Below are positions 1-17,206 of a DNA stretch of 21,331 nt, in pieces. The translations under genes were made by a program, and so were the position numbers. The DNA comes from a virus. Where the stretch lies: the IMG/VR virus record IMGVR_UViG_3300042731_006498, positions 1-21,331 of that record; one strand, given 5' to 3'. The stretch's first letter is position 1; each line of letters begins with the position of its first letter. A model generated the notes under the pieces. That model saw only the letters and a list, made by a program, of their open reading frames with translations. It was not told the origin of the DNA and ran no database searches.

Positions 1-206
1 AATACATAGGACTTAATTTTATGAGTGTAAACGAAAAACTTGTTATTTGTGACGAGAATCAACACGAACTACGTAAAGTACTTGATCAACATGGTATCGA
101 ATCAATAGGCTTACCTATGCGTCAAGCACGTACACTTAGCGGTGGCTTCCATTGTGTTACTCTTGATACAAAACGCAAAGGTACTAGGGAAGACTATTTT
201 GCGTGA
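1..206 (+). CDS. Glycine amidinotransferase (AGAT)-family protein, C-terminal fragment, 5' end outside window
   Basis: The reading frame is open from the left edge of the window to a TGA at 204-206, so this is the tail of a longer gene; the ATG at 21 is internal. The C-terminal segment carries R-x-L-S-GGFHCVTLD followed by K-R-K-G-T and a terminal D-Y-F. This matches the end of glycine/inosamine-phosphate amidinotransferases, where GGGFHC holds the catalytic cysteine and RRRGT lies just before the C-terminus. Family members transfer an amidino group from arginine to an amine acceptor such as glycine or an aminocyclitol. The catalytic Asp and His would lie in the missing part. The next gene starts inside the last codons of this one, so the two are probably co-translated. 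The acceptor substrate cannot be deduced from this fragment. Family assignment is good; activity is unproven. Confidence 0.8.
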   Translation, partial: YIGLNFMSVNEKLVICDENQHELRKVLDQHGIESIGLPMRQARTLSGGFHCVTLDTKRKGTREDYFA

Positions 207-1071
207 TGGTAACAGAGGACATTGGCTACCATTTTTAGAATGGATGGTTACAACCAGTTGCGACTTAGCTTGCCCTGGTTGTGACCGCTTTATTGATTAT
301 AGTCATAACTGGACAGAAAGTTATGAAGATATTGATAAAAATATGTCCTTTTGGTCTAAGCATTTAGATCCTGATAACTTTACGCTAATAGGCGGTGAAC
401 CTTTATTACACCCTTACATATATGATATTATTCGTAGCACACGCAAACACTTTGATCATGCAACTATAGAAATTTATACAAACGGACTGCTATTTCCTAA
501 ACGTCCTAAATTAATTGAACTACTGTTAGAATTAGGAAATGCAAAAGTAAGTTTAACTTATCATAATGAAGAACCAGAAATACGTTCTAAAATTGATAGA
601 AATATAAAGAAATATATTTTTAAACACTATGGATTTTATCAAGTAGCTAAAAATAAATGGCAATACAAGGATGTTGTATTTGAAACAACTGATCCTACAC
701 AAGGCGGTTGGTATGATTATAGACAAAATATAAATGGTATATTAAAGCCGTGGAAAGATAATGATCCTGCACAAAGTTATAGCAAATGTATGGCAAATGT
801 TTATCCTATAATATATAAAAATCGTTTATATAAATGTCCCCCAATTAGCATGGTAGAAACTCATTTAACAAAAAGTTTTCAACTAGGTGACGAAGATTGG
901 GCTCCTTATCTTGCTTACAAAGGCTTAGGAATAGATTTTACTGAAAGCGAACTAGAAGAATTTATAGATAATATACAAAAACCACACGCAATTTGCGGAA
1001 TGTGTCCAGCTAATCCTGTTTTAAAGAAACAGCCAAATGCAATAGTAAAACATAGGTTAGAAAAAATATGA
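199..1071 (+). CDS. Radical SAM protein with C-terminal cysteine-rich region
   Basis: This 290-aa protein has a radical SAM core: CxxxCxxC at residues 21-28 (CDLACPGC) to bind the [4Fe-4S] cluster and SAM, followed by GGEP at about 65-68. Four further cysteines near the C-terminus (about 197, 213, 266, 269) resemble a SPASM/twitch-type auxiliary-cluster region. The start is uncertain. I chose TTG at 199 because AGGGA at 186-190 sits 8 nt upstream and the gene then overlaps the amidinotransferase stop by 8 nt. A GTG at 142 would give 309 aa with a longer overlap, and the ATG at 244 would remove residues just before the cluster motif. The stop overlaps the next gene's start as ATGA. The substrate is unknown; SPASM-type members often modify peptides or sugars. 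An adjacent glycosyltransferase and a second radical SAM gene hint at glycan or small-molecule tailoring. Confidence 0.8.
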   Translation: MRDGNRGHWLPFLEWMVTTSCDLACPGCDRFIDYSHNWTESYEDIDKNMSFWSKHLDPDNFTLIGGEPLLHPYIYDIIRSTRKHFDHATIEIYTNGLLFPKRPKLIELLLELGNAKVSLTYHNEEPEIRSKIDRNIKKYIFKHYGFYQVAKNKWQYKDVVFETTDPTQGGWYDYRQNINGILKPWKDNDPAQSYSKCMANVYPIIYKNRLYKCPPISMVETHLTKSFQLGDEDWAPYLAYKGLGIDFTESELEEFIDNIQKPHAICGMCPANPVLKKQPNAIVKHRLEKI

Positions 1072-2255
1072 AAATACCATCAGCATTTTTACAAGGCGGA
1101 GCTCGTACATACGAAACACTAGTAAACAAGTATGAAGGTATACTTGGTTTTGATATTGATCAAGATAACTTTACAGTACATCCTAAAATGATTTTGTTTT
1201 TTGAGTTTGTAGGAAATAATTCTTATATGCTACAACAAATGCCTTTGATGACGGAAAGATTTAAGAATAGCGAATTGTTTCTTATACTAGATGATAGTTA
1301 CGAAGGACTTGCGAACAAAGAATTTATGGTTATGTTCAAAGATGCTTTAAAAAATACTCCGTGTGTAAAACACTGGCGTATACTTTCTAGCAATGCAAAA
1401 ATGAAAAGTATATGTGAAGAAGTATTTGGCAACAGTGAAAACTACGAATACTTTAACATACATATGCATCTTGCCCATTATGATAATATACATGTTCAAG
1501 AACAAGAATGGCAAATAAATGAACAACTACGCAATAAAAAGTTTTTTTGCGTGAACAGACAAGAACGTTTGCATAGACTATTAACTGTAGACTATCTTCT
1601 ACAAAACGATATTGCAAAACATACCTATCTAAGTTGTATGTTAGGCGAATACGCTAATCTTATAAGTGATAATAATAAAGTTTGGTCAACAGAAGACAAA
1701 AGTTTGCGTAAATTTTTAGATCCTGATTTAGATAATTTAGAATTATCTCAAGAACAGCGTAATAGATTAAGTGTACTTCCAATAGAATTAGATGTAGTTG
1801 AAAGTCAGCACCATCATATAAAAGTGAACATGCCAAATTTAGAAAACTATTTTCAGCAAAGTTACTTTAGTATTATAACAGAAGGAGATTTTGCTAGAGG
1901 AAATGAAAGGCAAATGTTTACAGAAAAAGTTTTGAAATGTTTTTTGTATGGACATCCGTTTATTGTTATTGGTTTGCCAGGCACTTTACAGTTATTACAT
2001 GAACAAGGTTTTATTACTTTTGGTGGAGTAGTTGATGAAAGTTATGACAAAGAAGCTGACGACCAAAAAAGACTTAAAATGTGTCTAGAACAAATATCTA
2101 AATTAAACAAATTAAATATGAATGAGTTTAAGAATATGTATAATGATCTAAAACCTATTTTACAACACAATTTTCAAACATATAAAGTACTAAACAGTAT
2201 GCCTGCACCTAATAGGTTAGCAAACGACTTAATTAGTTGGTATTCAGATGATTAA
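1068..2255 (+). CDS. Glycosyltransferase-like protein (GT-B / exostosin- or fucosyltransferase-like C-terminus)
   Basis: This 395-aa protein begins with the ATG of an ATGA overlap with the radical SAM gene. Residues about 160-170 contain a basic NRQERLHR stretch. Residues about 266-328 contain Y-F-S-I-I-T-E-G-D, then F-T-E-K-V-L-K-C-F-L-Y-G-H-P-F-I-V-I-G and D-E-S-Y-D. This pattern (E near the start, TEK followed by a hydrophobic strand ending in G) is that of the nucleotide-sugar-binding half of exostosin- and fucosyltransferase-like GT-B enzymes, and uncharacterised marine-phage proteins commonly carry it. No signal peptide or membrane segment is visible, so a cytoplasmic enzyme is likely. 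Donor and acceptor cannot be read from the sequence. Its 3' end overlaps the convergent gene at 2233-3174 by 23 bp. Assignment as a glycosyltransferase is moderate. Confidence 0.6.
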   Translation: MKIPSAFLQGGARTYETLVNKYEGILGFDIDQDNFTVHPKMILFFEFVGNNSYMLQQMPLMTERFKNSELFLILDDSYEGLANKEFMVMFKDALKNTPCVKHWRILSSNAKMKSICEEVFGNSENYEYFNIHMHLAHYDNIHVQEQEWQINEQLRNKKFFCVNRQERLHRLLTVDYLLQNDIAKHTYLSCMLGEYANLISDNNKVWSTEDKSLRKFLDPDLDNLELSQEQRNRLSVLPIELDVVESQHHHIKVNMPNLENYFQQSYFSIITEGDFARGNERQMFTEKVLKCFLYGHPFIVIGLPGTLQLLHEQGFITFGGVVDESYDKEADDQKRLKMCLEQISKLNKLNMNEFKNMYNDLKPILQHNFQTYKVLNSMPAPNRLANDLISWYSDD

Positions 2256-3174
2256 TTATAAAATCTTTTGTGGGTAAATCTAGTTTTGCACTAATATTTT
2301 TTATATATTCTTTTTCTTGATCTGGTAAGTGTTTTATATCCAACAACAAAGGATATGTAAGCACGTTGATATACCAATCTGCATTGAAACTACGCACATA
2401 ATTTGTAATATTTTCAATATCTTTGTAATTGTTTATATGTATAACAGTATTAAACTCTAATTTATATTTTTTTGTAGTAATATATTCAATAAAACGTTGA
2501 ACATGCATCCATTTAGTTCCGCTTCTTACTGATTCAGCAACTTTTCCTACTCCATCAATACTTACTATGAACATTACACTCTTAAACTTTGCCCATATTG
2601 CTTCATTTTCTTTATCCGGCATGTACATTGCGTTTGTATTGTACACAACATCTACTTTTGTAGGATCTTTAATTAATTTTAAAAGTTCTAAATGTCTTTT
2701 TGTACTTAAAGGCTCGCCACCTAGAAATAAAACCTTTGTAACAGTATCAGGAACACTTTTGATTGTGTCGATAGTCATGTAATCATAGTTTGCTTTACCT
2801 GTTTCTCTTATTTCTTTAGCTCGCCAGCTAGTGCTAAACTCAGAATTACAACCATCACAGGTTAAATTGCACAAATTGTCTATACCTATTTCTAAATATT
2901 CTAATCCTATGTTATCTGCTTTATACTTTTCGTTAAACTCTTGACGTAAACTTTTATGCTGTATACTTTCTTCGTAGTAGCACTTCTCACAGCCAGATAT
3001 ATGCTCTCCTGCACTGCTTAATTTTCGTAATTCTTCATATGCTTCACTATGCAGTACATTTTCTAAATCACCGTCTGTAGTCCCAATAGAATGTTTGAAT
3101 CGACAGCATGGAAAAATTCTTCCACCAGGGCGTATATTTGTATGTTTCCAAAATGCACTACAAAAAGTTGACAT
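2233..3174 (-). CDS. Radical SAM protein with N-terminal twitch-like auxiliary cluster motif
   Basis: This 313-aa protein has the canonical CxxxCxxC at residues 102-109 (CNLTCDGC) and GGEP at 152-155, typical of the radical SAM core. Upstream of the core lies a second cysteine set: C5, C23-C24 in a G-R-I-F-P-C-C-R context, and C62-x2-C65. These resemble the 'pw..l.i...G.v.pCc ... C..C...E' layout of a twitch/SPASM auxiliary cluster, here placed N-terminal rather than C-terminal. Such proteins recur in marine T4-like phages without known substrates. Its start overlaps the end of the upstream minus-strand gene by 17 nt, so it is the last gene of a three-gene cassette. Its own 3' end converges on and overlaps the glycosyltransferase gene. 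Fold assignment is strong; the reaction is unknown. Confidence 0.85.
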   Translation of the reverse strand: MSTFCSAFWKHTNIRPGGRIFPCCRFKHSIGTTDGDLENVLHSEAYEELRKLSSAGEHISGCEKCYYEESIQHKSLRQEFNEKYKADNIGLEYLEIGIDNLCNLTCDGCNSEFSTSWRAKEIRETGKANYDYMTIDTIKSVPDTVTKVLFLGGEPLSTKRHLELLKLIKDPTKVDVVYNTNAMYMPDKENEAIWAKFKSVMFIVSIDGVGKVAESVRSGTKWMHVQRFIEYITTKKYKLEFNTVIHINNYKDIENITNYVRSFNADWYINVLTYPLLLDIKHLPDQEKEYIKNISAKLDLPTKDFIINHLNTN

Positions 3175-3592
3175 AGTCTATTTCATACCTATCTAATTGT
3201 TTTAATGTTTCTTCTACCAATAGATTCAATTCTTTATCAGTGTAATATGGTTTTGAATCTTCATTTCTATAAGGATCAAAAAAATCAATTGTTTTAGCAT
3301 AGCTTTTTTCAATACGATTAGAATTAACATCTACTAATGTAGGAGTTTTTGCTTTTTCTGCTATATCTAATGTCTTTCCTACACCGGTAATTACAAAATG
3401 ACTCTTTCTGATAGCATATTGTAATTCTTTATCTTCATATTTACTAGATTTAATACTTACAATGTTGATTTTGTCTTTTAATTTATCGTTAAGATACAAA
3501 ACAGTGTTATGGTCAACATTGTCTTTAGCAATTAACAAAAAACTAAATTTATTTTTGTTATTTTCTTCAAATAATTCATTTATGTGCTTCAT
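3158..3592 (-). CDS. Hypothetical protein, 144 aa, middle gene of minus-strand cassette
   Basis: I do not recognise this protein family. It is 144 aa, lysine-rich and probably soluble, with no signal peptide, membrane segment or cysteine motif. A hydrophobic strand (about residues 16-22), a second (about 43-47) and an S-H-F-V-I-T-G-V-G-K-T-L-D-I-A segment (about 64-78), followed by the strand T-P-T-L-V-D-V, suggest a small alpha/beta fold. The I-T-G-V-G-K stretch recalls, only loosely, nucleotide-sugar-binding ends of GT-B or epimerase proteins. It starts with an ATG inside an ATGA overlap with the upstream 2OG-like gene and overlaps the downstream radical SAM gene by 17 nt. All three are therefore very likely co-translated. 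A role as partner or substrate-binding factor for the radical SAM enzyme is speculative. Confidence 0.6.
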   Translation of the reverse strand: MKHINELFEENNKNKFSFLLIAKDNVDHNTVLYLNDKLKDKINIVSIKSSKYEDKELQYAIRKSHFVITGVGKTLDIAEKAKTPTLVDVNSNRIEKSYAKTIDFFDPYRNEDSKPYYTDKELNLLVEETLKQLDRYEIDYVNFL

Positions 3593-4203
3593 TTATCAAC
3601 TGAATCCAGTATAAATTCTATGCTTACACGCTCATGTTCGCTAACATTTGTTGTTGTATAAGATTCAATGTAACTAGGAAAGAAATACATGTATCCTTCT
3701 TGCATTTGTAACAATTCTTCTGGAGCATTATAATGAGATCGATTAAAAGGATCATAAACTTTGTCATACCAGTGGGAATCTATTGGTTTTCTAAAATTAA
3801 TACTTGCATTTTCAGCAGGTGCATTAAGAAAATAGATACCTGTCGCTAAACTTTTGATTCTATTTTTTGGAATTGTCATTCCGCCAGGTGGTATTATAGT
3901 TACCCACATGTCAGTTATAGCAATTTGCTTGTTACTTTTAATTCTATATCTATTCATCATCAAATTCGCATAGGTTTGTACCTCAGGACCGCCTGCTATC
4001 CTTGCAAAACTATGAATACTTTGTAATCCGTTAGGACTTGTCCATACAGAACTATGATTTGAAGAGTTGTAATTCACATTACTCTTATACAAATCATGTA
4101 TAACGTGCATAAGTTGATTTTTTACGTCATTATGATCTTGAACCTGGATCTTATCTACGTTACATTCAATTATTGTTGTGCTATCTACGGGTAAACTTTG
4201 CAT
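3589..4203 (-). CDS. 2OG-Fe(II) oxygenase-fold protein lacking canonical iron ligands
   Basis: This 204-aa protein (from the ATG at 4203) shows the layout of a family of putative 2OG-Fe(II) oxygenases common in marine phages. It has W-V-T-I-I-P-P-G-G at about 101-108, a G-I-Y-F-L strand at about 122-126, FFPSYIESYT at about 174-183 and E-R-V-S-I-E-F near the end. In active relatives the PGG segment is followed by an H-x-H-type motif and the FPSW segment by L-x-H. Here those places read M-T-I-P-K-N and Y-I-E-S, so the usual metal-binding histidines are missing although the late arginine remains. It may be a non-catalytic scaffold or use another site. A TTG at 4251 would add 16 residues but overlaps the candidate promoter of the divergent halogenase gene and has no clear ribosome-binding site. 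Neither start has a convincing Shine-Dalgarno sequence. Confidence 0.65.
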   Translation of the reverse strand: MQSLPVDSTTIIECNVDKIQVQDHNDVKNQLMHVIHDLYKSNVNYNSSNHSSVWTSPNGLQSIHSFARIAGGPEVQTYANLMMNRYRIKSNKQIAITDMWVTIIPPGGMTIPKNRIKSLATGIYFLNAPAENASINFRKPIDSHWYDKVYDPFNRSHYNAPEELLQMQEGYMYFFPSYIESYTTTNVSEHERVSIEFILDSVDK

Positions 4204-4249
4204 AATGTATTTACGAAATTCACTATCAACAAATATTAGGTCTGAGACC

Positions 4250-4257
4250 AATAAATA
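4250..4257 (+). promoter_or_regulatory. Candidate T4-like late promoter for the halogenase operon
   Basis: AATAAATA at 4250-4257 differs from the T4 late octamer TATAAATA only at the first base. Transcription would begin about 6 bases downstream (near 4263). That leaves GGAG at 4267-4270 and the GTG start at 4277 on the message but excludes all upstream candidate starts. The motif is short and AT-rich, so chance occurrence is possible; the good placement is the main support. Confidence 0.4.
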
Positions 4258-4276
4258 TTATTCAACGGAGAATATT

Positions 4277-5746
4277 GTGAACTTACCAAAAGAAATTTGT
4301 GTAGTAGGCGGCGGAACAGCTGGTTTTGTAGCGGCTTTGATTATGAAAAAGTCGTTTCCTATTGTTAAGATTACCATTATAGAAAGTAGTAAGATAGGAA
4401 CTATTGGTGTCGGGGAAGGATCTACAGAACATTGGAAAGAGTTTATTGAATTTATGAATTTCAATAAGGCAGAAATGCTTACAAAGAGTGATGCAACATT
4501 CAAAGCAGGTATTATGTTTAGAGATTGGAGTAAGAATCATTACTTACAAACGGTAGAAGGTGCGTATAATATATTAGCAAGCGACTATCCGGTAATTTAT
4601 GGTAAACTTATAAGCGAAGGCAAACTACCAAAGGATTTAGTTGAAGATGAAAGCTGGACTGGCGATATTTATTGGACAAATGAAACTGAAGAAATACTTT
4701 CAGAGTTTCCTGTAGCACAATATCATTTTAACACTGTCAAATTAAACGAATTTTTACACGAAAAGGCAGAAGCATTGGGTATAAAAATTATAGATGATAT
4801 AATTGTAGATGTTGAAACTGACGAAACCGGGATAAAATCTATTGCAAGCGAAAGCACAACATATACTGCTGACTTTTTCATTGACTGTACTGGTTTTAAA
4901 CGTCTGTTGTTAAACAAGCTGGGAGCAGAATGGAGTAGTTATAGTGAATATTTGAGAATGAAACGTGCTATTGTATTTCAAACTCCTGACGAAGACAAAT
5001 ATCCTATGTGGACACTTGCTCAGGCTATGAAATATGGATGGATGTTTAGAATACCAGTGTGGGGAAGAAAAGGTAATGGTTATATCTTTGATAGTGATTA
5101 CATAAATGCTGAGCAAGCAAAAGCAGAAGTAGAAGAATTTTTAGGACATGAAATAGAAGTAAGGAAAGAAATAGGATTCGATCCAGGAGCAGTGAAAAAT
5201 CCATGGATTAAAAATTGTGTAGCTATAGGATTGAGTGCAAGTTTTGTAGAACCACTTGAAGCAACTAGTATTGGCACTAGTATCCAACAAAGTTTTTTAC
5301 TTTCAGACAGAATTTTAAACTACAACAATGTAACAATTGAGAAGTATAACAAAGAAATAGGTGTTGTCCTTGATGATATTAGAGATTTTATAAGTTTACA
5401 TTACATAAGTGATAGAGACGACAGCGAGTTTTGGAGAGATCAAAAAAATATTCCGTTACCTAAAGAGTTAGAAGAAAATTTATCTCAATGGAAACACAGA
5501 TTACCCGTGAGTGGTGATTTTAGACAAAGTAATTACAAATTGTTTGATAAAATGCATTACATCTTAGTGATGCACGGTCTTGGATTGTTTAATAAAGATA
5601 GTATACAACAACAATATAGTATGATACCACAAAATCAAAAAGAATATGCTGATCGGGTATTAAACGATCTCCACTTTAGTCGAGAAAATTATAGGACCAT
5701 ACCTCATAAAGATATTATTAGACTAGTTAGAACATTGAATGCGTAG
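4277..5746 (+). CDS. prnA: Flavin-dependent tryptophan-halogenase-like protein
   Basis: This 489-aa protein starts at GTG 4277, with GGAG 6 nt upstream, just before the FAD-binding strand. GGGTAG at 11-16 is the dinucleotide-binding loop. G-V-G-E-G-S-T is at 44-50. The D-A-T-F-K-A-G-I segment at 72-79 places Lys76 where flavin-dependent halogenases keep the catalytic lysine that guides hypohalous acid. The A-S-F-V-E-P-L-E-A-T-S-I segment is also characteristic. The halogenase signature WxWxIP appears as W-M-F-R-I-P at about 255-260, with Phe in place of the second Trp. Family members halogenate indoles or other aromatics using FADH2, oxygen and halide. Related genes occur in marine cyanophages, and one viral member is reported to iodinate diverse substrates. 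No flavin reductase is visible here, so FADH2 would come from the host. An in-frame ATG at 4178 would overlap the divergent gene and is unlikely. The next gene overlaps by 8 nt. Confidence 0.88.
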   Translation: MNLPKEICVVGGGTAGFVAALIMKKSFPIVKITIIESSKIGTIGVGEGSTEHWKEFIEFMNFNKAEMLTKSDATFKAGIMFRDWSKNHYLQTVEGAYNILASDYPVIYGKLISEGKLPKDLVEDESWTGDIYWTNETEEILSEFPVAQYHFNTVKLNEFLHEKAEALGIKIIDDIIVDVETDETGIKSIASESTTYTADFFIDCTGFKRLLLNKLGAEWSSYSEYLRMKRAIVFQTPDEDKYPMWTLAQAMKYGWMFRIPVWGRKGNGYIFDSDYINAEQAKAEVEEFLGHEIEVRKEIGFDPGAVKNPWIKNCVAIGLSASFVEPLEATSIGTSIQQSFLLSDRILNYNNVTIEKYNKEIGVVLDDIRDFISLHYISDRDDSEFWRDQKNIPLPKELEENLSQWKHRLPVSGDFRQSNYKLFDKMHYILVMHGLGLFNKDSIQQQYSMIPQNQKEYADRVLNDLHFSRENYRTIPHKDIIRLVRTLNA

Positions 5747-6614
5747 ACTTTTTACATTTGGTTGTAGTTTGACTCAATTCTTTTATCCTACCTGGGCAGA
5801 TTTATTAATTTGGCACTTAGGAGAAAAGGTTGATATATCAGAAAACTGGGGTAAGTCGGGTGCAGGAAATCAGTTTATCTTTACTAGGTTAATGGAAGCT
5901 GACAGTATCTATAATTTTACAAAAGATGACTTAATAGTTATTCAGTGGACAAGTATGTACCGTGATGACAGATGGATAGAGGGTACAGGTTGGCACAATG
6001 CGGGTAACCTTTATCACGGACAGTTGAAACATGAACCTATGTCATTAAATAATTTTGACTATACAGATCAATATCAATGGGCTGACCAAGTACATTGTGT
6101 TATGCGAGACTGTGCTATAATAAAAGCAACTGAAACTTTTTTACAAAATAAAAACTGTACCTATATTAAATTTCAGTTTTCGGACTACTACAATGATCTG
6201 TCGGAGAAAGATAGTAAATTAGATTATAGCCAAGCACTTACTCCTAATTGTATAAACGGAATTCTGAATGAATATAAAGAATATTTACAGACAGATATGC
6301 CAGCAATAATGGATTGGAATGGGTATGATCCAAAAAATCCAAAAAAATATGTTGACGGAAGACCAATGTGTTTGGCAAACATGGGTGATAGGTTAGATGA
6401 AGCAAGAGCAGAAATGCATCCGTTACCATTTGAATACGCAGACTATGTAGAAAAATTTATTTTACCAAAAATAGGCATGGACAAATTAAATCCTAAGGCA
6501 ATTGAACTAGCAGAGCACTACCAAACAAAATTAACAGAACAAAATTTACCAGTTTTAAGTAAATTAGGCTGGATAGAATTAAATGCAGACAAGATAGGAT
6601 GGTCAGATGACTAA
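5739..6614 (+). CDS. SGNH/GDSL-hydrolase-like protein
   Basis: This 291-aa protein opens with R-L-F-T-F-G-C-S-L-T, which resembles the block I nucleophile motif of SGNH hydrolases (Ser10). N-W-G-K-S-G-A-G-N at about 37-45 fits the block II glycine region. I-V-I-Q-W-T-S at about 67-73 sits where block III is expected, although the usual Asn of G-x-N is not clear. Near the C-terminus E-M-H-P-L-P resembles the catalytic His-Pro of block V, but the Asp usually three residues before the His is not evident. Family members are esterases or deacylases, often acting on carbohydrate acyl groups. Here it could add or remove acyl groups on the glycan implied by neighbouring genes. No signal peptide is present. 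It overlaps the halogenase stop and the next start by 8 nt each. Family is moderately supported; activity uncertain. Confidence 0.6.
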   Translation: MRRLFTFGCSLTQFFYPTWADLLIWHLGEKVDISENWGKSGAGNQFIFTRLMEADSIYNFTKDDLIVIQWTSMYRDDRWIEGTGWHNAGNLYHGQLKHEPMSLNNFDYTDQYQWADQVHCVMRDCAIIKATETFLQNKNCTYIKFQFSDYYNDLSEKDSKLDYSQALTPNCINGILNEYKEYLQTDMPAIMDWNGYDPKNPKKYVDGRPMCLANMGDRLDEARAEMHPLPFEYADYVEKFILPKIGMDKLNPKAIELAEHYQTKLTEQNLPVLSKLGWIELNADKIGWSDD

Positions 6615-7179
6615 CAACCCACCAGTAATAGGATTAGATAGAGACGGAACAATAAACAAAGACATAGGTACATACGTCAAGAAGCCAGAAGAGTTTGAAC
6701 CTTTGCCAGGAAGTTTAGAAGCAATCAAAATAATACGTGACAAAGGTTATGATGTAGTAATTTTAACAAATCAAGCAGGAATAATGAAGAAAGAAATGCT
6801 TCCTGAGGATGTAGATATTGTACATGGATACATGCTTAATCTTTTAGGACAAGTTGGTTGCAAAAGTATCAACGGATTGTACTATAGCACCACAAATCTT
6901 AAGGAAGATATCTACGCAAAACCAAATATTGGTATGTTTAGAAGAGCTGAAAAAGAAATTGGTGTAGATTGGAAGAACGGCTTGTATGTTGGAGACAAAA
7001 TTTCAGACCTTAAAGCCGCTGTAAAGGCGAAAGCAAAGCCGGTATTAGTAAAAACAGGCTACGGTGCCGAAACTTTAGAGAAACTTAACAGTTTTGCTAA
7101 CAAAGATTTGAAAAAGCAGACCGAAGTGTACGAAAACCTATTAGAATTTGCGGAGAGCTTAACGACCCTTACTGGATAA
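6607..7179 (+). CDS. gmhB: GmhB-like HAD phosphatase (heptose bisphosphate phosphatase-like)
   Basis: This 190-aa protein is a HAD-superfamily IIIA phosphatase. LDRDGTIN (Asp11 nucleophile, Asp13) is motif I, V-I-L-T-N-Q-A-G motif II, Lys105 in A-K-P-N-I-G-M motif III, and V-G-D-K-I-S-D-L with Asp130 and Asp134 motif IV. The order and wording track GmhB, which removes the C7 phosphate of D-glycero-D-manno-heptose 1,7-bisphosphate. The family's zinc loop (YYCPHHP...CxCRKP in E. coli) reads YYSTTN...IYAKP here, so all four zinc ligands are absent. Histidinol-phosphate phosphatase (HisB N-terminus) belongs to the same group, but hldE- and hldD-like genes in this window favour the heptose role. 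It starts in an 8-nt overlap with the SGNH gene. Its TAA stop (7177-7179) lies inside the late-promoter octamer that drives the tail genes. Confidence 0.8.
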   Translation: MTNNPPVIGLDRDGTINKDIGTYVKKPEEFEPLPGSLEAIKIIRDKGYDVVILTNQAGIMKKEMLPEDVDIVHGYMLNLLGQVGCKSINGLYYSTTNLKEDIYAKPNIGMFRRAEKEIGVDWKNGLYVGDKISDLKAAVKAKAKPVLVKTGYGAETLEKLNSFANKDLKKQTEVYENLLEFAESLTTLTG

Positions 7180-7711: not shown

Positions 7712-9211
7712 ATGGCAAAAAGCATAATCAATATAGGTACAGCCGCTAACGATGGAACTGGTGACAACATCAGAGCAGGCGCTACCAAAATTAACGCAAA
7801 CACAAACGAAATTTATAGTGCATTAGGTGACGGAACAAACATCAAAGATGTTGTTAATTCCCAATTAGAATTAGACGTTCCACCTTTATCAGGCAAAGTA
7901 AACAAAATAAGTTTACTATGTGAATCAACAGCTGAACTAAACAACATTAGTCCTGCTGATTATCACGGCACAATTTTACATGTTCACCAAACAGGCAAAG
8001 TTGTTGTTGCTCATAGCAATGCATGGCACAGCATGTTACTTGATACAAGCGGTGGCGCAATTCCTAACTACACAGATCCACTAAGTGCAGTAGCATATGG
8101 TGGTGGCATAAATGATCTTACCGACGTAGACACAACTTCAGTAACGCCATTCACTGGAGCAGTTCTAAAATGGGACGGTACTAAATGGTCACCAGGGACA
8201 GATGTTACTACAGGTGGCGGCGGCACAGACGCTGACACACTAGATGGACAAGATGGTTCTTATTACCTAAACTGGAATAACTTTTCAAACAAACCAACTA
8301 TTCCAACAGTGTTGACTGATCTTTCTATTGTTGATGGTACAGCTGGACAAGTACTTACAACAGATGGTAACGGTTCCTTTACGTTCCAAGCGGCAAGTGG
8401 TGGTGGAGCAACACAAAATTTATTTGAAACTGTTGACGGTGATAACGGAACTACAACAGCAAACAGCGCAACTGACACATTAACTATTGCAGGCGGTACA
8501 AATATTAGCACAACTGTTGTAGGAGATACACTAACAATTAACTATGTTGGTGATGCACTGTCAGGTGAAGCTAACCAAAATGCATTTAGTTTTGTTCAAG
8601 GTGATAGTGGAATAGCAGAAGCAGATAGTGCAACTGATACTTTAACTATCGAAGGTGGTACAAATATTACAACAGCAGTATCAGGCGATACAATAACTAT
8701 TAATTACTCAGGAGCGGCGGCAACGTTTGCTACATTAACTGATACAACTATTACTAATGCAGGCGCTGGTAGTATGCTACACTACAGCAGTGGTAATCAA
8801 TGGGTAAATGCAAACGATGTTACTATTGATAGAGTTGCATTTCCTGCAATTACACAACTAGTGGTAACAGCGGCAGGTAGCTCAGGTTACTTATTTGATC
8901 AATACGGAACTTCACAAGATCCAACAATTTATGCGATAAGTGGTACAACAATATCTTTTGATTTGAATGACAGTACAATGGGCAATCATCCTTTCCAAAT
9001 TGAAACAAGTGGTGGACTAGCATACAATGAAGGTTTAGTTCATGTTGATCCAGATGGAACAAAATCAACAGGGTCAAATGCAAACGCACAGTCAAATGGA
9101 ACATTGTATTGGAAGATTCCAGCAGGTGTTTCGGGAACATACGCTTATCAATGTACTGCTCATAGTGCAATGAGAGGTAATATTGTAATCAAAGACATAA
9201 GTGCATTATAA
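7712..9211 (+). CDS. Tail fibre/baseplate-type structural protein with C-terminal cupredoxin domain
   Basis: This 499-aa protein begins with S-I-I-N-I-G-T-A-A-N-D-G-T-G-D followed by K-I-N-A-N-T-N-E-I-Y, a signature of phage tail-fibre N-termini. Residues 174-226 carry tail-fibre-type motifs (DADTLDGQDGSYY, NFSNKPTIP, GTAGQVLTTDGNG). Two approximately 45-residue repeats follow (236-334). Residues about 380-499 form a cupredoxin-like domain: N-H-P-F gives His426, and Y-Q-C-T-A-H-S-A-M-R-G gives Cys481, His484 and Met487. The CxxHxxM spacing is that of amicyanin-type blue copper proteins, so a type-1 copper site could be complete. Electron transfer is unlikely to be needed in a virion; copper might stabilise the tip or take part in binding, which is inference. 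AGGA at 7700-7703 precedes the ATG. Virion role is well supported by composition and context. Confidence 0.8.
   Translation: MAKSIINIGTAANDGTGDNIRAGATKINANTNEIYSALGDGTNIKDVVNSQLELDVPPLSGKVNKISLLCESTAELNNISPADYHGTILHVHQTGKVVVAHSNAWHSMLLDTSGGAIPNYTDPLSAVAYGGGINDLTDVDTTSVTPFTGAVLKWDGTKWSPGTDVTTGGGGTDADTLDGQDGSYYLNWNNFSNKPTIPTVLTDLSIVDGTAGQVLTTDGNGSFTFQAASGGGATQNLFETVDGDNGTTTANSATDTLTIAGGTNISTTVVGDTLTINYVGDALSGEANQNAFSFVQGDSGIAEADSATDTLTIEGGTNITTAVSGDTITINYSGAAATFATLTDTTITNAGAGSMLHYSSGNQWVNANDVTIDRVAFPAITQLVVTAAGSSGYLFDQYGTSQDPTIYAISGTTISFDLNDSTMGNHPFQIETSGGLAYNEGLVHVDPDGTKSTGSNANAQSNGTLYWKIPAGVSGTYAYQCTAHSAMRGNIVIKDISAL
8417..8713 (+). repeat. Two tandem protein repeats of about 45 residues in the tail protein
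   Basis: Residues 236-281 and 290-334 share the pattern D-(N/S)-G, then (A/D)-S-A-T-D-T-L-T-I-x-G-G-T-N-I, then V-x-G-D-T-(L/I)-T-I-N-Y. The copies are similar but not identical in DNA, so this is an old duplication. Such beta-repeat modules usually form a fibrous shaft. Confidence 0.75.
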
Positions 9212-9781: not shown

Positions 9782-12700
9782 ATGGCAAAGAAAAAAATAG
9801 AAAATTATGTGTTTAGACCAGGATTAGGTATAGATGATAACGCTTATCCAAATGCTTGGAGTTTAATAAATCAAAACTACAACTTTATTAAAAAAGAAGT
9901 TGCGGCATGGATACAAACACAAATTGACAATAACAATCCTGACTTTCTATTCAACAGAGCAAAGTGTATTCGTGATTTAGGTTATATTACAGATGCTGTT
10001 CAATATGATATGATCTTTGGCACAAACTATAATGCTGTCTTCCAAGGAACAATGGAACAATACAGTATTGATATTAGCAATACCGTTGTTAATACTCTTG
10101 TAAACGCAAAAGCAAGATTTGCTGACCTAAGTGGTGTAAAAGCAAGTGCCACAGCAGTAGCAAGACACAATGCAGGCTGGGATGAAGTAATTGATGTAGC
10201 ACAAAACGGTTACTTATCTGCAGATACAGTAACATGGTCTAACCCAACAAATGCCAACACAGATAATATTAATGCTAAAGACCAATTAGATGGTAACTTA
10301 AACTTTATCGTAAACGATGCAAGTGCATATGTAAACATTAACTATCCAACACTAGGTTACAATCAAGACTTATTTGAAAACGATATTAAAATAATTGTAA
10401 TGGCCGCAACCTACGATATACTATACGGCGGAAACACTGCAAGTTGGGATGCCGCTAAAGGTATGGTAACATACAGTGAAGTTGGTAAGGAAGAATACCA
10501 AACAGCAATGCTGGCCGCTATGGGTCATGTTAAAACAATAGGTTTAGAAATTATTCAAGGTAATGCTGTTACACCTTTAACAGGAAATACAGAAACTCAC
10601 AATGCCTCTGCAGGTGGAGCAATAGGTGATATTAATAATATCAACTGGAACGCTTTGATAGACTATACTATAAATGAAATTACAACTGCTGAATCAATAG
10701 ATTTAGTTACAAAAACAGCACCAAATATCGGATGGCCAGCGGCGGATTTAATCACAGCCTATAACGCTATAGACACAAACCAAACAACAATTATTAGTGA
10801 AGTTACTCCAGATGCTGAGTATACTTACAATCAAGAAAAGTGTGAAAGAGATACAGGATTTAACTTAACTGCTTGGTTACATGACTTACGCTATAACGGT
10901 AATGAAGAAACTAGCAGAATAGCAAGCACATATTGGGAAGGCACAGTAGCACAAGTTGACGGTGATAGACTTCCTGAAATACGTGCAAAAGAATTTACAA
11001 GAGATTTAATCAACAATAATATTTTACTAAACACAGCACAGTCTACACCTTATCAAACAGAAGTTGCACAAGTTATTGACACTAGTAAAACTGCTGAAGG
11101 ACAAGGTGCAACTCGTATAAGTGAGCTAAGTGGAATTGTAATTAGCGTAATTACAACAGGCACAAGTGCTTTACCTACATTAGTTAGAAAAGGTTTAGGA
11201 CATATTAAATTTATTGGTAACTACGATCTAAGCGACATTCTTTTAATAACAAACAGCACACGCAACGAAATTATATATAATTTTAGTGATCCTACACGCG
11301 GGGGAACACTAAGTCTACAAACAGACGACACACCAAGAGATTCAAGCGGTTATTTACTTAAATATGATTTCACAGATGCAAACAGAGATGCTGACGACGA
11401 TTTTAAAAAGTTTTTACAAACCACAGACGGTGTTGTCACACTAAACTTTAAGTACAATACTGACTCACATGAAATTACAGATGATGTACAAGTTTACATA
11501 GAAACGCCAGAAGTAAGAACTAGACCATATGATTTTGGTACAGACGCTATTGAACGTATGCGTATTGCTCCTCCACTATCTATGCTTGATGCTGACTTTG
11601 AGTACGGCTTACAGCCTACAAAGTGGAGTGCGATTGGAACACAAAGAGGATATCCAAGTATATATGAAGTTCCTGGTACTGATACTGAAGTATCAAGTGT
11701 TGTTACAGATGGTTCAGTAGGAACTGACGGCGTTGGTGCTAGTAAGATTACAGTAACGACACAAGGTTCACATGGATTTACACCAGGTACACCGATTACA
11801 ATTAAAGCACTAGAAGACAGTGTTGTTGGCGCAAGTAGAGCTGAAGGTAGTTTTGTTATTACAACAGTTCCAACTAACAATACTTTTACATACTTTGCAA
11901 AAGCAAAAGTTGGTGCAGAAAACGATGTGTTAAGCACAACTTACACACAATTAAGAAAAGGTGATTTCTATACAGGTGCGGCAATTGGTAAACCTAGTTT
12001 TGCTGTTGTAAGTAATGGTACAGCAGGACAAATGACTCTAACACTTGCGGCGCAGACAGGTGAAAATAGATTAGCATTTACAGGTAATGTACCTGAAATT
12101 GGTGCTCCGATTGTTTACACAGATATTCCAGAAGGCGCACAGGTTACTGCTATATCAAGCACACCAACAGGTAATGCACTAGTGCCAGTAACAACTGCAC
12201 CTATTAATATAGGTGACACTAGTTTTGATGTTGCAAGTACAACAGGAATTGTACAAGGACTTGCCGCAGATAACGGAAGTGGTGATGCTATTTTCGTAAC
12301 AAATATTGCGGGTAACACTGTTACAATGAGTGGTGAATTTACAACAGCGATAACACAGAGTGAACAAGTTTACACAGCGGTAAGCGGTACTACAACAGCG
12401 GCCGCTGGTATCAACGCACAATTTACAGTGAGCAAAGCAGGAACTGTATACAGTGTTGATAGTATTGATCAAGCAGGTAGTGGTTATGTAGAAGGTGACC
12501 AAATTTTAATTACTGGTGATAACATTGGTGGTAATACTCCTGCAAACGATGCAACAATAACAGTTTCAACAGTTGACGGAACTGGCGGTATAACAGCAGT
12601 TGCTATTTCAGGTAGTGCATTAGATGGCGCAATTACATATACAAATCCTACTACAACTTATCAAACAGACGGTGGTAGTACATTACCACAAATAGATATT

Positions 12701-15700
12701 TCATATGCAGACGGTGCATACACAACAGCAGTATTTAACTCACCAAATAACTCAACAGGATATGCTGTAAATGATAGAATACGTGTACTAGGTACAGTTA
12801 TTGATCCTTCAAGTGGACAAGACGGTAATCAAAGTGCAGGCGGTAATGACTGTATTATAAAAGTTACTAGTGTTGACGGTAGTGGAAATATCACAGGCGT
12901 AACAATTGATACTAACGATTGGAGTATTGGTGTTCCACCTGCTCAAGATAGAAACTATTCTTTTGGTGGATCAAATCTTTCATTCACTGGTGGAAGTGGT
13001 ACTGGATTTGAATTTAATGTTACTGCATCAGGCGGTAGCTATACAGTGCAAATATCACAACCAGGAACAGGTTATACAACAGCAGATACAATCACTTGTA
13101 ATGGTACAGACTTAGGTGGTATATCACCTACCAACAACTTAGTATTAAGAATTAACGAAGTTGGTGCAAGTGGTGAAATAATAGGATTTAGAATTGAAGG
13201 TCCTGATGTTTCTTCAGAAGCAGTAGCGGCTGATAGTGGAACATTTATATCAAAATCAGGCAGTGATTTGGTAGGTGCTAGTGCAACATTTAACATCGAA
13301 AATGATGGTTCAGCATACAGTGTAGCGGCTATATCTAATGCTGGTACAGACTACCATATCGGTCAAACTTTCTTAATTGAAGGTAGTGCTTTAGGTGGTT
13401 CTACTCCTGCTAATGACCTTACACTGACTGTAGCAACAGTTGGTAACTTAGGTGAAATACTTACACTATCATTAAGCGGTACACCAAGCACACTATCAAG
13501 TGTATTCTCAAATCAAAGCGGGTCAAACGTTGCAAACAACGGTGCTGGCGCATCACTAGATGTAACAAGATCAGCAGGTTCTTACACAGTAGTAAGCGTA
13601 AATGCAACAGGCGGTACAAACTATAGAACTGGTAATACAATTACTATTTTAGGTACTGACTTAGGTGGAGCATCACCTGCTAACGATGCAACTGTTACTG
13701 TTACAGGTGTAAATGCCGGAGCAATAACTACAGCAACAGTAACTGGTACAGCTATAGGCGGCGGCACACTAAGTTTAGTAAACGCAGTTACTATGAGTGA
13801 ATTTACAACAGCACCTATTACAGTTGGTGAAGTAATCGATTTTGAAGCATTGGCAACATTAGAAATTACTTTTGAAAACGCACATGGTATAGTGCCAGGT
13901 GCTACATTTATTGTTAATGTAAGTTCAGATGATGCAGGTGCTGGAGGAACAAATAACCACGCATTAGCAAGCGGAGCATTTATTGCTACTGCAATTCCAG
14001 CAGTAAATAAATTGCGCTATGCGGCAAGAGCTCCAGGTTCAATTACAACAACAGCAAACGACGATATACTTGCAGATGTGTATCTACGTCCAGACTCGTT
14101 CTTTATACACAGACCATATGACGGTGGTGTTCAACTAGGAACAGGCGGACCTCAACACAGTGCTCAAGCAATACGTCAAAGTAAAAAATATATTAGATAT
14201 CAGTCAGGTAAAGGCATTATGTACACCACTGGTGCATTGTTTGCTCCAAGTTATGATATTGCAAGTGTTACATCAAATGGTACTGAAGTTGGGTCAACAA
14301 TCACAGTAACAATGGATGACAATGATCACGGTATGCAGGTTGGTGGTAAAGTTAGACTAATTGGTGTTGATACACCTGGTTATAACGGCAATTACACTGT
14401 TACACAAATTATTAATGAAAGAACATTTCAAACTATTAGTACTAGACGTTTAGGTAGTATTAATGCTACACTAGGTTTTGCGGCACAAGTTTCTGTAACT
14501 GGTTGGCATGGTGCAACTGTTCGTTCAGGTATTTTTGATGATCAGAATGGTATCTATTGGGAATACGATGGATCAAATATTACAGTAGCACAACGTACAA
14601 GTACAAAACAGATTGCAGGCACTATTGCAGTAAGCCCAGACAGTAATTTGATAACTGGTGCTGGTACTAAATTTAGAGATCAATTAAAAGCAGGTGATAG
14701 AATTGTCCTAAGAGGAATGACACATGTTGTATCTCATGTAGACAGTCAAACTAGCATGACAGTTACTCCGGACTATAGAGGTGTAAATGAAGTGCTTGCG
14801 GCAAAGGTTTGTTTGGTAACTGATAAAAAAGTAAAACAAGATGAATTTAACCTTGATAGATTAGACGGCACAGGGCCAAGTGGATACAATATTGATATTG
14901 CATACATGCAGATGATTGGTATTCAATACAGCTGGTATGGTGCTGGTTTTATTGATTGGATGCTACGTGGTAGTGATGGTAACTTTGTGTTTGCCCACAG
15001 AATGCGTAACTCAAACGTAAACACAGAGGCGTTTATGAGATCAGGTAACTTGCCTGTTCGTTACGAAGTTACTAACGAAGGACCAGGTGCTAAATTAAGT
15101 GAAGCAATGTCAGATAATACTGCATATGTTCCACTTGATGATTCACGTTTCTTCCCAGACAGTGGTACAATTTATATTGACAACGAATTAATTGCATTTA
15201 GTAGCGTTGATCATTCACAAAATAGATTAACAGGCTTAACAAGAGGAACAAGTTTGTTCAACTTCCAAGCTGGTGCTCTTAGACAGTATACAGCAGGTAA
15301 TGCGGCCGCACATGATGCTAAAACAGGTGTTGTGCTTGTAAGTAATACAATTACGCCGCTTATTAGCCACTGGGGTTCTGCGTTTGTAACAGATGGTAAT
15401 TTTGATGAAGATAGAGGTTACATTTTCTCTTACACAGAAACAGGTTTAAGTGTTAGTACAACAAGACAAACAGCATTCTTGCTACGTCTAGCGCCTAGTG
15501 TTTCTAACGCTATTGTTGGTGACTTAGGAGATAGAGAACTACTAAACAGAGCGCAGTTGTTGATGCAAGAAATGGAAATTACGTCAGACGGCGAAGATGA
15601 TTTAGGTAATTCAATACAAGGCGGTATCGTTATTGAAGGTATCCTTAATCCACAGAACTATCCTTTAAATCCAGCAGACGTTGGTTGGCAAGGATTGTCA

Positions 15701-16549
15701 GGACTAGCACAAGGTGGACAGCCGAGCTTTGCTCAAGTTGCATCAGGTGGTTCTGTTGTTTGGAGTACAGGAGATACATCAACTACAGCAAACGCAACTA
15801 TTATTCCTAGAACGCAAGTTAATGCTCAGATGAATACTTTCCAGGCAAATAGACGTAGAAACTATGCATACTTTTATCCATCATTTTTAGATAAAAATTT
15901 AGAAGTTGGTGACGAAGTTGATGATGCAAAATTTCCTGCGGGAACTACAATTACTCAGATTACAAACCAAGGCACATATGTATTTGTTAGATTTAGTCAA
16001 ACTTCAACAAGTAATCTAGTTGATAACGCTAACGTAACATTTGCTTTTGGTGGAGATCAAGAAAACAGAAACTTTGCATACTTTTCACAGACAACATGGG
16101 AAGCGGCAGGCGCTAAAGCTGGTACAGAGTTGAATGATCCTCCAACAGACCAAAGTGATATTAGTTTCCCAGCTGGTACATATGTATCAGGTGTACAAGG
16201 TCCATTACTGTTTGGTGATCCAGATGTACCAGGCGAATTTGTATACTATTACAGAGTTTCATTTAACAATGCGGCAACAGGTACAGTAAGTCCAGGAGAT
16301 CAATTTACGTTCTTATTCCAACAACCACCGTATGCACAGCCAGGTGAAACAGTCTTTTCATTTATTGCTACACCGGGCGAACGTTCAGTGCTTAACTTGG
16401 ATACATTGAAAGAGTTAACTAATACTACACTAGGTGGTAGAGGTACATTCCCGAATGGTCCTGACGTTCTAGCAATTAACGTGTATAAAGTGTCAGGCGC
16501 GGCAGTAAACGCTAATATTATTATTAAATGGGGTGAAGCACAGGCATAA
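9782..16549 (+). CDS. Giant virion structural (tail/baseplate) protein, 2255 aa
   Basis: This 2255-aa protein is the largest in the window. The N-terminal part contains a duplicated K-C-x-R-D-x-G motif, at residues 61-67 (KCIRDLGYITDA) and about 352-358 (KCERDTGFN), each followed by a D-x-x-x-(F/Y)-x-(G/N)-N type segment. Five approximately 75-95-residue beta modules follow (about 870-1330). Next comes F-F-I-H-R-P-Y-D-G-G-V-Q-L-G-T-G-G-P with R-Q-S-K-K-Y-I-R-Y-Q-S-G-K-G, a phrase recurrent in marine T4-like structural proteins. Then I-Y-I-D-N-E-L-I-A-F and L-T-G-L-T-R-G appear. The C-terminus has G-E-T-V-F-S-F-I-A-T-P-G-E and ends N-G-P-D-V-L-A-I-N-V...I-I-I-K-W-G-E-A-Q-A, also a conserved ending. 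No catalytic motif is evident. Location at the baseplate or as a long fibre is inferred. Several long minus-strand ORFs over it are shadows of its repetitive coding. Confidence 0.85.
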   Translation: MAKKKIENYVFRPGLGIDDNAYPNAWSLINQNYNFIKKEVAAWIQTQIDNNNPDFLFNRAKCIRDLGYITDAVQYDMIFGTNYNAVFQGTMEQYSIDISNTVVNTLVNAKARFADLSGVKASATAVARHNAGWDEVIDVAQNGYLSADTVTWSNPTNANTDNINAKDQLDGNLNFIVNDASAYVNINYPTLGYNQDLFENDIKIIVMAATYDILYGGNTASWDAAKGMVTYSEVGKEEYQTAMLAAMGHVKTIGLEIIQGNAVTPLTGNTETHNASAGGAIGDINNINWNALIDYTINEITTAESIDLVTKTAPNIGWPAADLITAYNAIDTNQTTIISEVTPDAEYTYNQEKCERDTGFNLTAWLHDLRYNGNEETSRIASTYWEGTVAQVDGDRLPEIRAKEFTRDLINNNILLNTAQSTPYQTEVAQVIDTSKTAEGQGATRISELSGIVISVITTGTSALPTLVRKGLGHIKFIGNYDLSDILLITNSTRNEIIYNFSDPTRGGTLSLQTDDTPRDSSGYLLKYDFTDANRDADDDFKKFLQTTDGVVTLNFKYNTDSHEITDDVQVYIETPEVRTRPYDFGTDAIERMRIAPPLSMLDADFEYGLQPTKWSAIGTQRGYPSIYEVPGTDTEVSSVVTDGSVGTDGVGASKITVTTQGSHGFTPGTPITIKALEDSVVGASRAEGSFVITTVPTNNTFTYFAKAKVGAENDVLSTTYTQLRKGDFYTGAAIGKPSFAVVSNGTAGQMTLTLAAQTGENRLAFTGNVPEIGAPIVYTDIPEGAQVTAISSTPTGNALVPVTTAPINIGDTSFDVASTTGIVQGLAADNGSGDAIFVTNIAGNTVTMSGEFTTAITQSEQVYTAVSGTTTAAAGINAQFTVSKAGTVYSVDSIDQAGSGYVEGDQILITGDNIGGNTPANDATITVSTVDGTGGITAVAISGSALDGAITYTNPTTTYQTDGGSTLPQIDISYADGAYTTAVFNSPNNSTGYAVNDRIRVLGTVIDPSSGQDGNQSAGGNDCIIKVTSVDGSGNITGVTIDTNDWSIGVPPAQDRNYSFGGSNLSFTGGSGTGFEFNVTASGGSYTVQISQPGTGYTTADTITCNGTDLGGISPTNNLVLRINEVGASGEIIGFRIEGPDVSSEAVAADSGTFISKSGSDLVGASATFNIENDGSAYSVAAISNAGTDYHIGQTFLIEGSALGGSTPANDLTLTVATVGNLGEILTLSLSGTPSTLSSVFSNQSGSNVANNGAGASLDVTRSAGSYTVVSVNATGGTNYRTGNTITILGTDLGGASPANDATVTVTGVNAGAITTATVTGTAIGGGTLSLVNAVTMSEFTTAPITVGEVIDFEALATLEITFENAHGIVPGATFIVNVSSDDAGAGGTNNHALASGAFIATAIPAVNKLRYAARAPGSITTTANDDILADVYLRPDSFFIHRPYDGGVQLGTGGPQHSAQAIRQSKKYIRYQSGKGIMYTTGALFAPSYDIASVTSNGTEVGSTITVTMDDNDHGMQVGGKVRLIGVDTPGYNGNYTVTQIINERTFQTISTRRLGSINATLGFAAQVSVTGWHGATVRSGIFDDQNGIYWEYDGSNITVAQRTSTKQIAGTIAVSPDSNLITGAGTKFRDQLKAGDRIVLRGMTHVVSHVDSQTSMTVTPDYRGVNEVLAAKVCLVTDKKVKQDEFNLDRLDGTGPSGYNIDIAYMQMIGIQYSWYGAGFIDWMLRGSDGNFVFAHRMRNSNVNTEAFMRSGNLPVRYEVTNEGPGAKLSEAMSDNTAYVPLDDSRFFPDSGTIYIDNELIAFSSVDHSQNRLTGLTRGTSLFNFQAGALRQYTAGNAAAHDAKTGVVLVSNTITPLISHWGSAFVTDGNFDEDRGYIFSYTETGLSVSTTRQTAFLLRLAPSVSNAIVGDLGDRELLNRAQLLMQEMEITSDGEDDLGNSIQGGIVIEGILNPQNYPLNPADVGWQGLSGLAQGGQPSFAQVASGGSVVWSTGDTSTTANATIIPRTQVNAQMNTFQANRRRNYAYFYPSFLDKNLEVGDEVDDAKFPAGTTITQITNQGTYVFVRFSQTSTSNLVDNANVTFAFGGDQENRNFAYFSQTTWEAAGAKAGTELNDPPTDQSDISFPAGTYVSGVQGPLLFGDPDVPGEFVYYYRVSFNNAATGTVSPGDQFTFLFQQPPYAQPGETVFSFIATPGERSVLNLDTLKELTNTTLGGRGTFPNGPDVLAINVYKVSGAAVNANIIIKWGEAQA
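12388..13770 (+). repeat. Five tandem beta modules within the giant tail protein
   Basis: Five diverged copies span roughly 12388-12640, 12660-12930, 12985-13210, 13265-13490 and 13537-13770. Each runs G-(A/T)-x-F/L...Y-(S/T)-V...G-x-x-Y...I-x-G-x-x-(L/I)-G-G-x-(S/T)-P-(A/T)-N-(D/N)...T-V-x-x-V...G-x-I. Copy 2 is the most diverged: its G-G-x-P-A-N-D loop is replaced by D-P-S-S-G-Q-D-G-N-Q. The loop and the last strand are the best-conserved parts. Boundaries are approximate. Confidence 0.75.
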
Positions 16550-16863: not shown

Positions 16864-17206
16864 CTATTCTGTAATTGTCTTCAACACTGTCAGCAGTGCT
16901 TACTTCTGTAATACTACTACCAGGTTCCATACAAATAAGTTGATGCGGTTGCAAAGGAGGATTATGCCAAGTGTCTCCTTCTTTTAATTCGTGTTCGTGT
17001 AGAGTAGCATCTTTAGTATCAATCCATCTTAGTAAAAATCTACCATTATTTACAAACCAAGTTTCGTCTTTTTCTTTGTGAAAATGCATACTGAATTTGG
17101 CACCAACTTTTTCAAATACCATAATTTTACCACAGTACTTGTCATTGGTTGCCCATATTAATTCAAAGCCCCAACCTTTGTCTACTTTTCCTTTTAACTG
17201 TGTCAT
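16766..17206 (-). CDS. Cupin-domain protein (mannose-6-phosphate-isomerase-like)
   Basis: This 146-aa protein is a single-domain cupin. Motif 1 is complete, with His41, His43 and Glu48 in M-H-F-H-K-E-K-D-E-T-W and Gly55 in N-N-G. Motif 2 is G-D-T-W-H-N-P-P-L-Q-P-H with His88. The sequence resembles the type II phosphomannose isomerase / sugar-phosphate cupin group, and the opening K-V-D-K-G-W-G-F-E-L-I-W is typical of that group. It could isomerise or epimerise a sugar phosphate, or bind a sugar nucleotide. The recognisable domain ends near N-Y-R-I (residue 114). Residues 115-146 are a polar Asp/Gln/Thr/Asn-rich tail encoded antisense to the end of the 104-aa gene, which suggests overprinting after loss of an earlier stop. 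It is last in the minus-strand operon and joined to the 2OG gene by an ATGA overlap. Confidence 0.8.
   Translation of the reverse strand: MTQLKGKVDKGWGFELIWATNDKYCGKIMVFEKVGAKFSMHFHKEKDETWFVNNGRFLLRWIDTKDATLHEHELKEGDTWHNPPLQPHQLICMEPGSSITEVSTADSVEDNYRIVRGDSQSLGDNQDTPTQTLQNNTDHDENQTSD

Follow-up and report, generated by a model that had tools for sequence, protein, structure and literature searches.

Gene P0001 of a marine phage, carried on the 21,331-nt stretch of viral DNA analysed here (hereafter the window), encodes a protein that is predicted to keep the double-stranded beta-helix fold of the 2OG-Fe(II) oxygenases but has other residues at all three positions where the family carries its iron ligands. 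In the most likely reading, to which a probability of about 0.6 is given, P0001 is a pseudo-oxygenase that binds no iron and carries out no oxygenation, and that has been kept as a binding subunit complexed with P0002, the product of the next gene, serving the neighbouring enzymes. Because the fold is kept, the ligands are lost clade-wide, and the rest of the protein is conserved, P0001 is most likely a binding partner rather than an enzyme; the lack of catalysis, the physical P0001–P0002 complex, and the help to neighbouring enzymes are what we infer. The features expected of an oxygenase pseudoenzyme of the RESC14/TlxI type—a conserved fold, lost catalytic residues, and purifying selection—are all found here.

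The P0001 ORF is genuine, with an ATG start at position 4203 and a stop at 3589 (Table 1). Its product scores 39.6 bits against Pfam PF13759 (2OG-FeII_Oxy_5), above the gathering threshold of 27, and matches phrog_81 (2OG-Fe(II) oxygenase) in PHROGs with an E value of 2e-14; against TIGR02466 it reaches 52.3 bits, under the curated cut-off of 62.5, and it is therefore not filed under that family. An initial sequence-only reading had described the family framework as kept, and P0001 does retain PPGG and TGIYFL as well as Arg192, at the position of the Arg that usually binds the 2OG C5 carboxylate in this fold. The same reading had pointed to missing iron-ligand histidines at both expected sites. 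Alignment with eight isolate-phage homologues, which runs without gaps across the PPGG...TG block, bears this out and places the HxH...H ligands of the family at K113, R115, and S181. The facial triad of a functional Fe(II)/2OG oxygenase (HxH...H) is absent from P0001, which reads K113-N-R115...S181, and is intact in all eight of these homologues. Two solved homologues were also aligned: 3bvc has HIH and a distal His at the P0001 ligand positions, and solved members, 2rg4 included, keep HxH...H there. Eighteen isolated-phage records matched P0001, none over 80% of the query, and genome-contig scans (queries A2 and A7), which are pattern-based and reach only fairly close relatives, returned no cellular homologues.

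Table 1. Positions of the genes and codons discussed, in window coordinates.
Feature	Position	Strand	Basis or remark
P0001, pseudo-2OG-oxygenase, predicted PF13759 fold without metal ligands	3589-4203	-	204 aa; family match and model
Lys113 codon, replaces first ligand His of HxH	3865-3867	-	Sequence and alignment
Arg115 codon, replaces second ligand of HxH	3859-3861	-	Sequence and alignment
Ser181 codon, replaces distal ligand His	3661-3663	-	Sequence and alignment
Arg192 codon, 2OG-binding Arg position, retained in P0001	3628-3630	-	Alignment
P0002, 144-aa partner, alpha/beta model	3158-3592	-	4-base overlap with P0001 gene
P0003, radical SAM with N-terminal twitch domain	2233-3174	-	NF033640; 17-base overlap with 144-aa gene
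395-aa protein of no assigned family, conserved neighbour	1068-2255	+	Convergent with radical SAM gene
Second radical SAM protein (CDLACPGC), conserved neighbour	142-1071	+	Family match
Amidinotransferase C-terminal end, truncated by window edge	3-206	+	Full-length relative in L002
Flavin-dependent tryptophan halogenase homologue, divergent, start uncertain	4205-5746	+	WxFxIP signature variant

The AlphaFold2 model of P0001, built from 38 sequences of the window and scan loci with phage-record proteins left out of the structure alignment, has a mean pLDDT of 87.9 and a pTM of 0.85, and the K113/R115 loop lies within a block of mean pLDDT 87. A Foldseek search with this model returned 562 PDB chains at E <= 0.001, in which family structures lead (3bvc first, E 2.2e-10, then 2rg4, E 1.7e-9) and known oxygenases come next; 8fnc, whose chain 14 we take from its name to be RESC14, is also among the matches. 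VIA gives Z 19.2 for 2rg4 (rmsd 4.0, 183 aligned) and Z 19.1 for 3bvc (rmsd 4.5, 187 aligned), with the following row, a prolyl hydroxylase, well below at Z 15.6. According to the model, therefore, the double-stranded beta-helix oxygenase fold is preserved, as had been supposed from the letters. A salt bridge replacing the metal was also considered, E180 being invariant in the P0001 group, and was dropped because adjacent strand residues should face opposite ways.

Orthologues of P0001 in IMG/VR are 85% (L001/L002), 86% (L003/L004), and 61% (L018, L024) identical to it, and the same K/R/S stands at the ligand positions in all three distinct orthologues, which the window apart come from six IMG/VR contigs. 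A search for homologues sharing the loss, proposed in the initial reading, found it clade-wide. In a maximum-likelihood tree of 46 proteins, from which the ligand columns and the Arg192 column had been removed beforehand and two incomplete sequences (one each of L076 and L036) excluded, the 19 distinct proteins of the clade group together with support of 100/99. At least one ligand is missing from 18 of the 19, L072 alone having all three; all 27 tree proteins outside the clade, which were collected because they resemble the clade or came up in a phage search, and so do not sample the family at random, have the complete set.

The losses differ in detail among lineages. The four rows of the P0001 group read K/R/S, whilst L079 reads H/Q/V, L068 H/V/N, and L078 Y/G/N; nine other clade members have T, K, S, or R at the first position, K or N at the second, and L, V, I, or T at the third. 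L073 (K/N/H) and L077 (H/H/F) are sisters with support of 100/99, and their losses are complementary. If ligands were never regained, loss occurred at least about five times, separately in L079, the P0001 group, L073, L077, and the nine-member group, with the losses of L068 and L078—whose places in the tree are unresolved—coming on top. Two changes suffice under parsimony with free ligand regain; the account without regain is preferred because up to three specific His would otherwise have to come back, and a single loss followed by regain is disfavoured on that ground. L079 has, in addition, a second oxygenase-like gene (5379–5996) with a full HxH...H triad, which overlaps the start of its radical SAM gene, the pseudo-oxygenase lying elsewhere on the contig.

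Strong purifying selection acts on the clade: the protein is kept and the metal site is not. NG86 dN/dS is 0.035 for the window versus L002 and 0.048 versus L004, with high dS (1.9–2.5), and is not computable versus L018; values run from 0.035 to 0.057 among the window, L002, and L004, with 0.142 for L004 versus L018. In the second subclade close members mostly give 0.04–0.1, with values as high as 0.26 where the sequences compared are distant. For close relatives whose ratio can be computed, about 0.03–0.1 is the usual result; many pairs have a large dS or none that can be calculated, which makes these ratios rough, yet they are far below 1, and the P0001 gene is therefore not decaying. In a conservation ranking based on 13 representatives of the 19 clade rows, the ligand columns, invariant outside the clade, rank 124, 178, and 196 of 197. 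The clade conserves H24, K28, D37, M167, E169, and K204 instead.

Genetic coupling to P0002 was surveyed in 41 loci, namely the window and 40 others. The next gene starts directly at the oxygenase-like stop in 40 of the 40 loci whose contig continues, L076 ending within the gene; the overlap is of four bases in 39 of the 41 (38 ATGA, with GTGA in L066) and of one base in L079. In separate scans, 28 of 28 loci found with the oxygenase-like alignment of the second subclade lay on radical SAM cassette contigs, as did 32 of the 33 found with the 144-aa protein alignment, the last being cut at a contig end. The gene overlap speaks for co-translation of P0001 with P0002 and not, in itself, for a complex. 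Such co-translation had been suggested for the window and turns out to be a constant feature of the clade, and the pairing suggests an obligate P0001–P0002 complex.

The predicted structure of P0002 is an alpha/beta domain (pLDDT 89.5). Sequence searches of Pfam, PHROGs, NCBIfam, and the PDB brought up nothing meaningful, isolated phages gave no match at all, and Foldseek against the PDB returned nothing at E <= 0.001. VIA aligns the model with the C-terminal half of WaaC (Z 10.7, rmsd 3.5, 124 aligned) and that of GtfD (Z 10.1, rmsd 3.0, 120 aligned), with receiver domains also at Z 9–10. This weak likeness to the C-terminal half of a GT-B glycosyltransferase is only a lead, because GT-B C-terminal halves share the top VIA rows with NDH subunits, receiver domains, and nucleoside hydrolases.

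Both neighbours singled out beforehand, the 144-aa gene and a radical SAM gene, are present, with overlaps at both junctions. P0003 scores 220.4 bits against NF033640 (cut-off 170) and retains CxxxCxxC as CNLTCDGC. When the best 80 of 113 P0003 relatives were used as loci, 40 contained a clade oxygenase-like gene; the other 40 have no clade member in the stored flank, some of these flanks being contig ends. That the radical SAM gene turns up in the absence of the pair as well counts against the subunit reading of P0001. The order pseudo-oxygenase, ~140-aa gene, radical SAM gene, all overlapping, is found in 33 of the 40 clade loci, and L078 has the same order with a middle gene of 301 aa; the window and 34 of the 40 other loci have the radical SAM gene behind the pair. 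Elsewhere, the oxygenase-like gene comes with a gene of 115 aa on the opposite strand (L068, L070, L071) or with a 277- or 281-aa gene (L072, L079), and the L076 locus is truncated where its contig stops.

Beyond the radical SAM gene, the 395-aa gene, the second radical SAM gene, and the amidinotransferase gene follow in that order in 31 of the 31 contigs listed (of 33 three-gene contigs) and in L078. The full-length amidinotransferase of L002 matches the inosamine-phosphate amidinotransferase 1bwd (E 3e-90), and the 395-aa protein has no meaningful match in Pfam, PHROGs, NCBIfam, or a further search. This locus of amidinotransferase, two radical SAM enzymes, and 395-aa protein looks like an unexplored phage biosynthetic pathway, and it recurs in many phage contigs. 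The block of StrB1-like amidinotransferase, second radical SAM, and 395-aa genes (window 3–2255) recurs also without the pseudo-oxygenase. The pairing across phages, the repeated losses, and the amidinotransferase/second radical SAM locus all go beyond the initial reading.

The halogenase homologue is found upstream, in divergent orientation, in the window, the listed P0001-group contigs, and L079. Its signature is GWMFRIP (WxFxIP) in the window, L002, L004, L018, and L079, and WxWxIP in S-H38, S-SCSM2R, and L006; in all five of the former, Phe stands in for the second Trp of the halogenase signature. The window also encodes a HAD phosphatase (6607–7176), an NAD-dependent epimerase (17684–18526), and a fusion of PfkB kinase and a cytidylyltransferase-like domain (18529–19659), genes that resemble those of the ADP-heptose pathway (GmhB, HldD, HldE). 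Tail proteins like T4 gp9/10 (7712–9208) and T4 gp15 (20113–21255) indicate a T4-like phage as the source of the window and put the locus next to tail genes; a 2255-aa ORF at 9782–16549, with no Pfam match at E <= 0.01, probably encodes an exceptionally long protein of the tail or its fibres.

In the preferred reading of P0001 as a binding subunit, the oxygenase fold would have stopped binding iron and catalysing, and the protein would form a complex with P0002 from the overlapping next gene, in which the conserved residues of the N-terminal helix and the C-terminus might make the contacts. Together the two probably assist the twitch radical SAM enzyme, the second radical SAM enzyme, the amidinotransferase, and the 395-aa protein, and might present or hold a substrate for them; with R192 and PPGG/TGIYFL kept, P0001 may have remained able to bind 2OG or some other small acid. 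The binding or scaffold role put forward in the sequence-only reading is the best reading available, while the interaction itself is something we infer. A more specific version can be offered tentatively: the pseudo-oxygenase and a half-sized glycosyltransferase-like protein may form a two-protein carrier that holds a substrate (a nucleotide-linked sugar or aminocyclitol, say) for the amidinotransferase and the two radical SAM enzymes of an undescribed phage pathway, with a binding role that preceded ligand loss and hence allowed catalysis to be lost repeatedly.

Four other explanations were weighed. The foremost, although unlikely, is that P0001 is a ligand-binding sensor, in which 2OG (via Arg192) or a related acid or phosphate would sit in the old pocket, Lys113 and Arg115 would replace the charge of the metal, and a signal would pass to the partners. 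R192 is retained in all four P0001-group rows, K113, R115, and K117 are invariant within that group, and the other large subclade likewise has a basic loop at the ligand site. However, 13 of the 19 distinct clade members carry another residue in place of R192, and within the clade the ligand columns belong with the more variable ones; pocket binding is therefore not a clade-wide function.

Ranked below the sensor, and rather improbable, is a TlxI–TlxJ-style heterodimer, with P0001 as the auxiliary half and an intact 2OG oxygenase of the locus as the catalytic one. The inactive TlxI partners TlxJ in this way (PMC12141560); in L002, L072, and L078 the amidinotransferase has HxD...H-like ORFs (motifs read by eye) next to it, and the window holds a 2OG-FeII_Oxy_3 protein at 17203–17709. 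These ORFs are, however, not adjacent to P0001 and may be of another subfamily, and the partner to which P0001 is constantly coupled is P0002, no oxygenase.

That P0001 is still an enzyme, with metal ligands supplied by another His/Asp/Glu set or by a partner protein, appears very doubtful. Single-ligand enzymes can be active: AspH variants with a single protein ligand reportedly remain so (PMC10947486), and L073, L077, L079, and L068, which keep one or two His, may accordingly be active still; P0001, unlike those variants, keeps none of the three. H24 and H50 are both conserved in the clade but occur also in L072 beside a full triad, and as far as the alignment goes are thus poor candidates for replacement ligands, which bears on the rebuilt facial triad that the sequence-only reading had named as the outcome to tell against it. 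In the AlphaFold2 model, moreover, H24 is placed at the N-terminal helix, and the stretch around H50 has low confidence; D98 is shared by several intact relatives, and across the aligned clade no conserved His/Asp/Glu triad was seen within the barrel strands. Least credible of all is a decaying gene, sequencing error, or alignment artefact, which would suit losses that differ among lineages but has against it the recurrence of K/R/S in three distinct proteins on six further contigs, the gap-free alignment, the low dN/dS, and the intact reading frames and gene overlaps.

Phage 2OG oxygenases receive their annotation from the fold and are taken to be active, and the clade suggests that this label can mislead for a whole viral subfamily; the repeated losses, together with intact and partial relatives, form a natural series for the transition from enzyme to binding protein. 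Metal-free or inactive versions of the fold with binding roles are already known, so that what is new is the phage setting and the history of repeated loss; a literature search, with limited coverage of subscription journals and preprints, found no phage pseudo-oxygenase clade described. Among PF13759/TIGR02466 proteins, 3bvc and 2rg4 resemble P0001 in fold (VIA Z 19), in a PPGG-like block, an SG/TG-Y block, and a C-terminal R-x-S-x-x-F, and differ in having HxH...H where P0001 has K-x-R...S. The cyanophage 2OG-Fe(II) oxygenases (phrog_81; T4-GC 101) represent the family of P0001 in marine T4-like phages and have been proposed to act on the cellular or host 2OG pool (PMC3037559); unlike in P0001, the triad is complete in the eight analysed here. 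Marine T4-like genomes can carry many radical SAM genes (PMC5332604).

Closer to the proposed role is RESC14, a phytanoyl-CoA dioxygenase pseudoenzyme and RESC organiser in trypanosome RNA editing, which organises a complex through a 2OG-oxygenase fold without catalysis (PMC12936278); it differs from P0001 in belonging to eukaryotic mitochondrial RNA editing and to another subfamily, with no phage biosynthetic locus. The C-terminal domain of OGFOD1/Tpa1 is a second beta-helix domain without a metal site and with a proposed role in partner binding (PMC4396695); unlike P0001, it is eukaryotic and covalently fused to an active domain. TlxI (of TlxIJ) and TlxC (of TlxAC) are non-catalytic oxygenase homologues that act as auxiliary subunits, much as is proposed for P0001, and TlxJ alone works, apparently at lower efficiency, without its inactive partner TlxI (PMC12141560). 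TlxI was noted for missing the 2OG-binding Arg, whereas P0001 retains this Arg and lacks the metal ligands; and the partner of TlxI is an active oxygenase of the same kind as itself, whereas P0001 pairs, genetically, with an alpha/beta protein.
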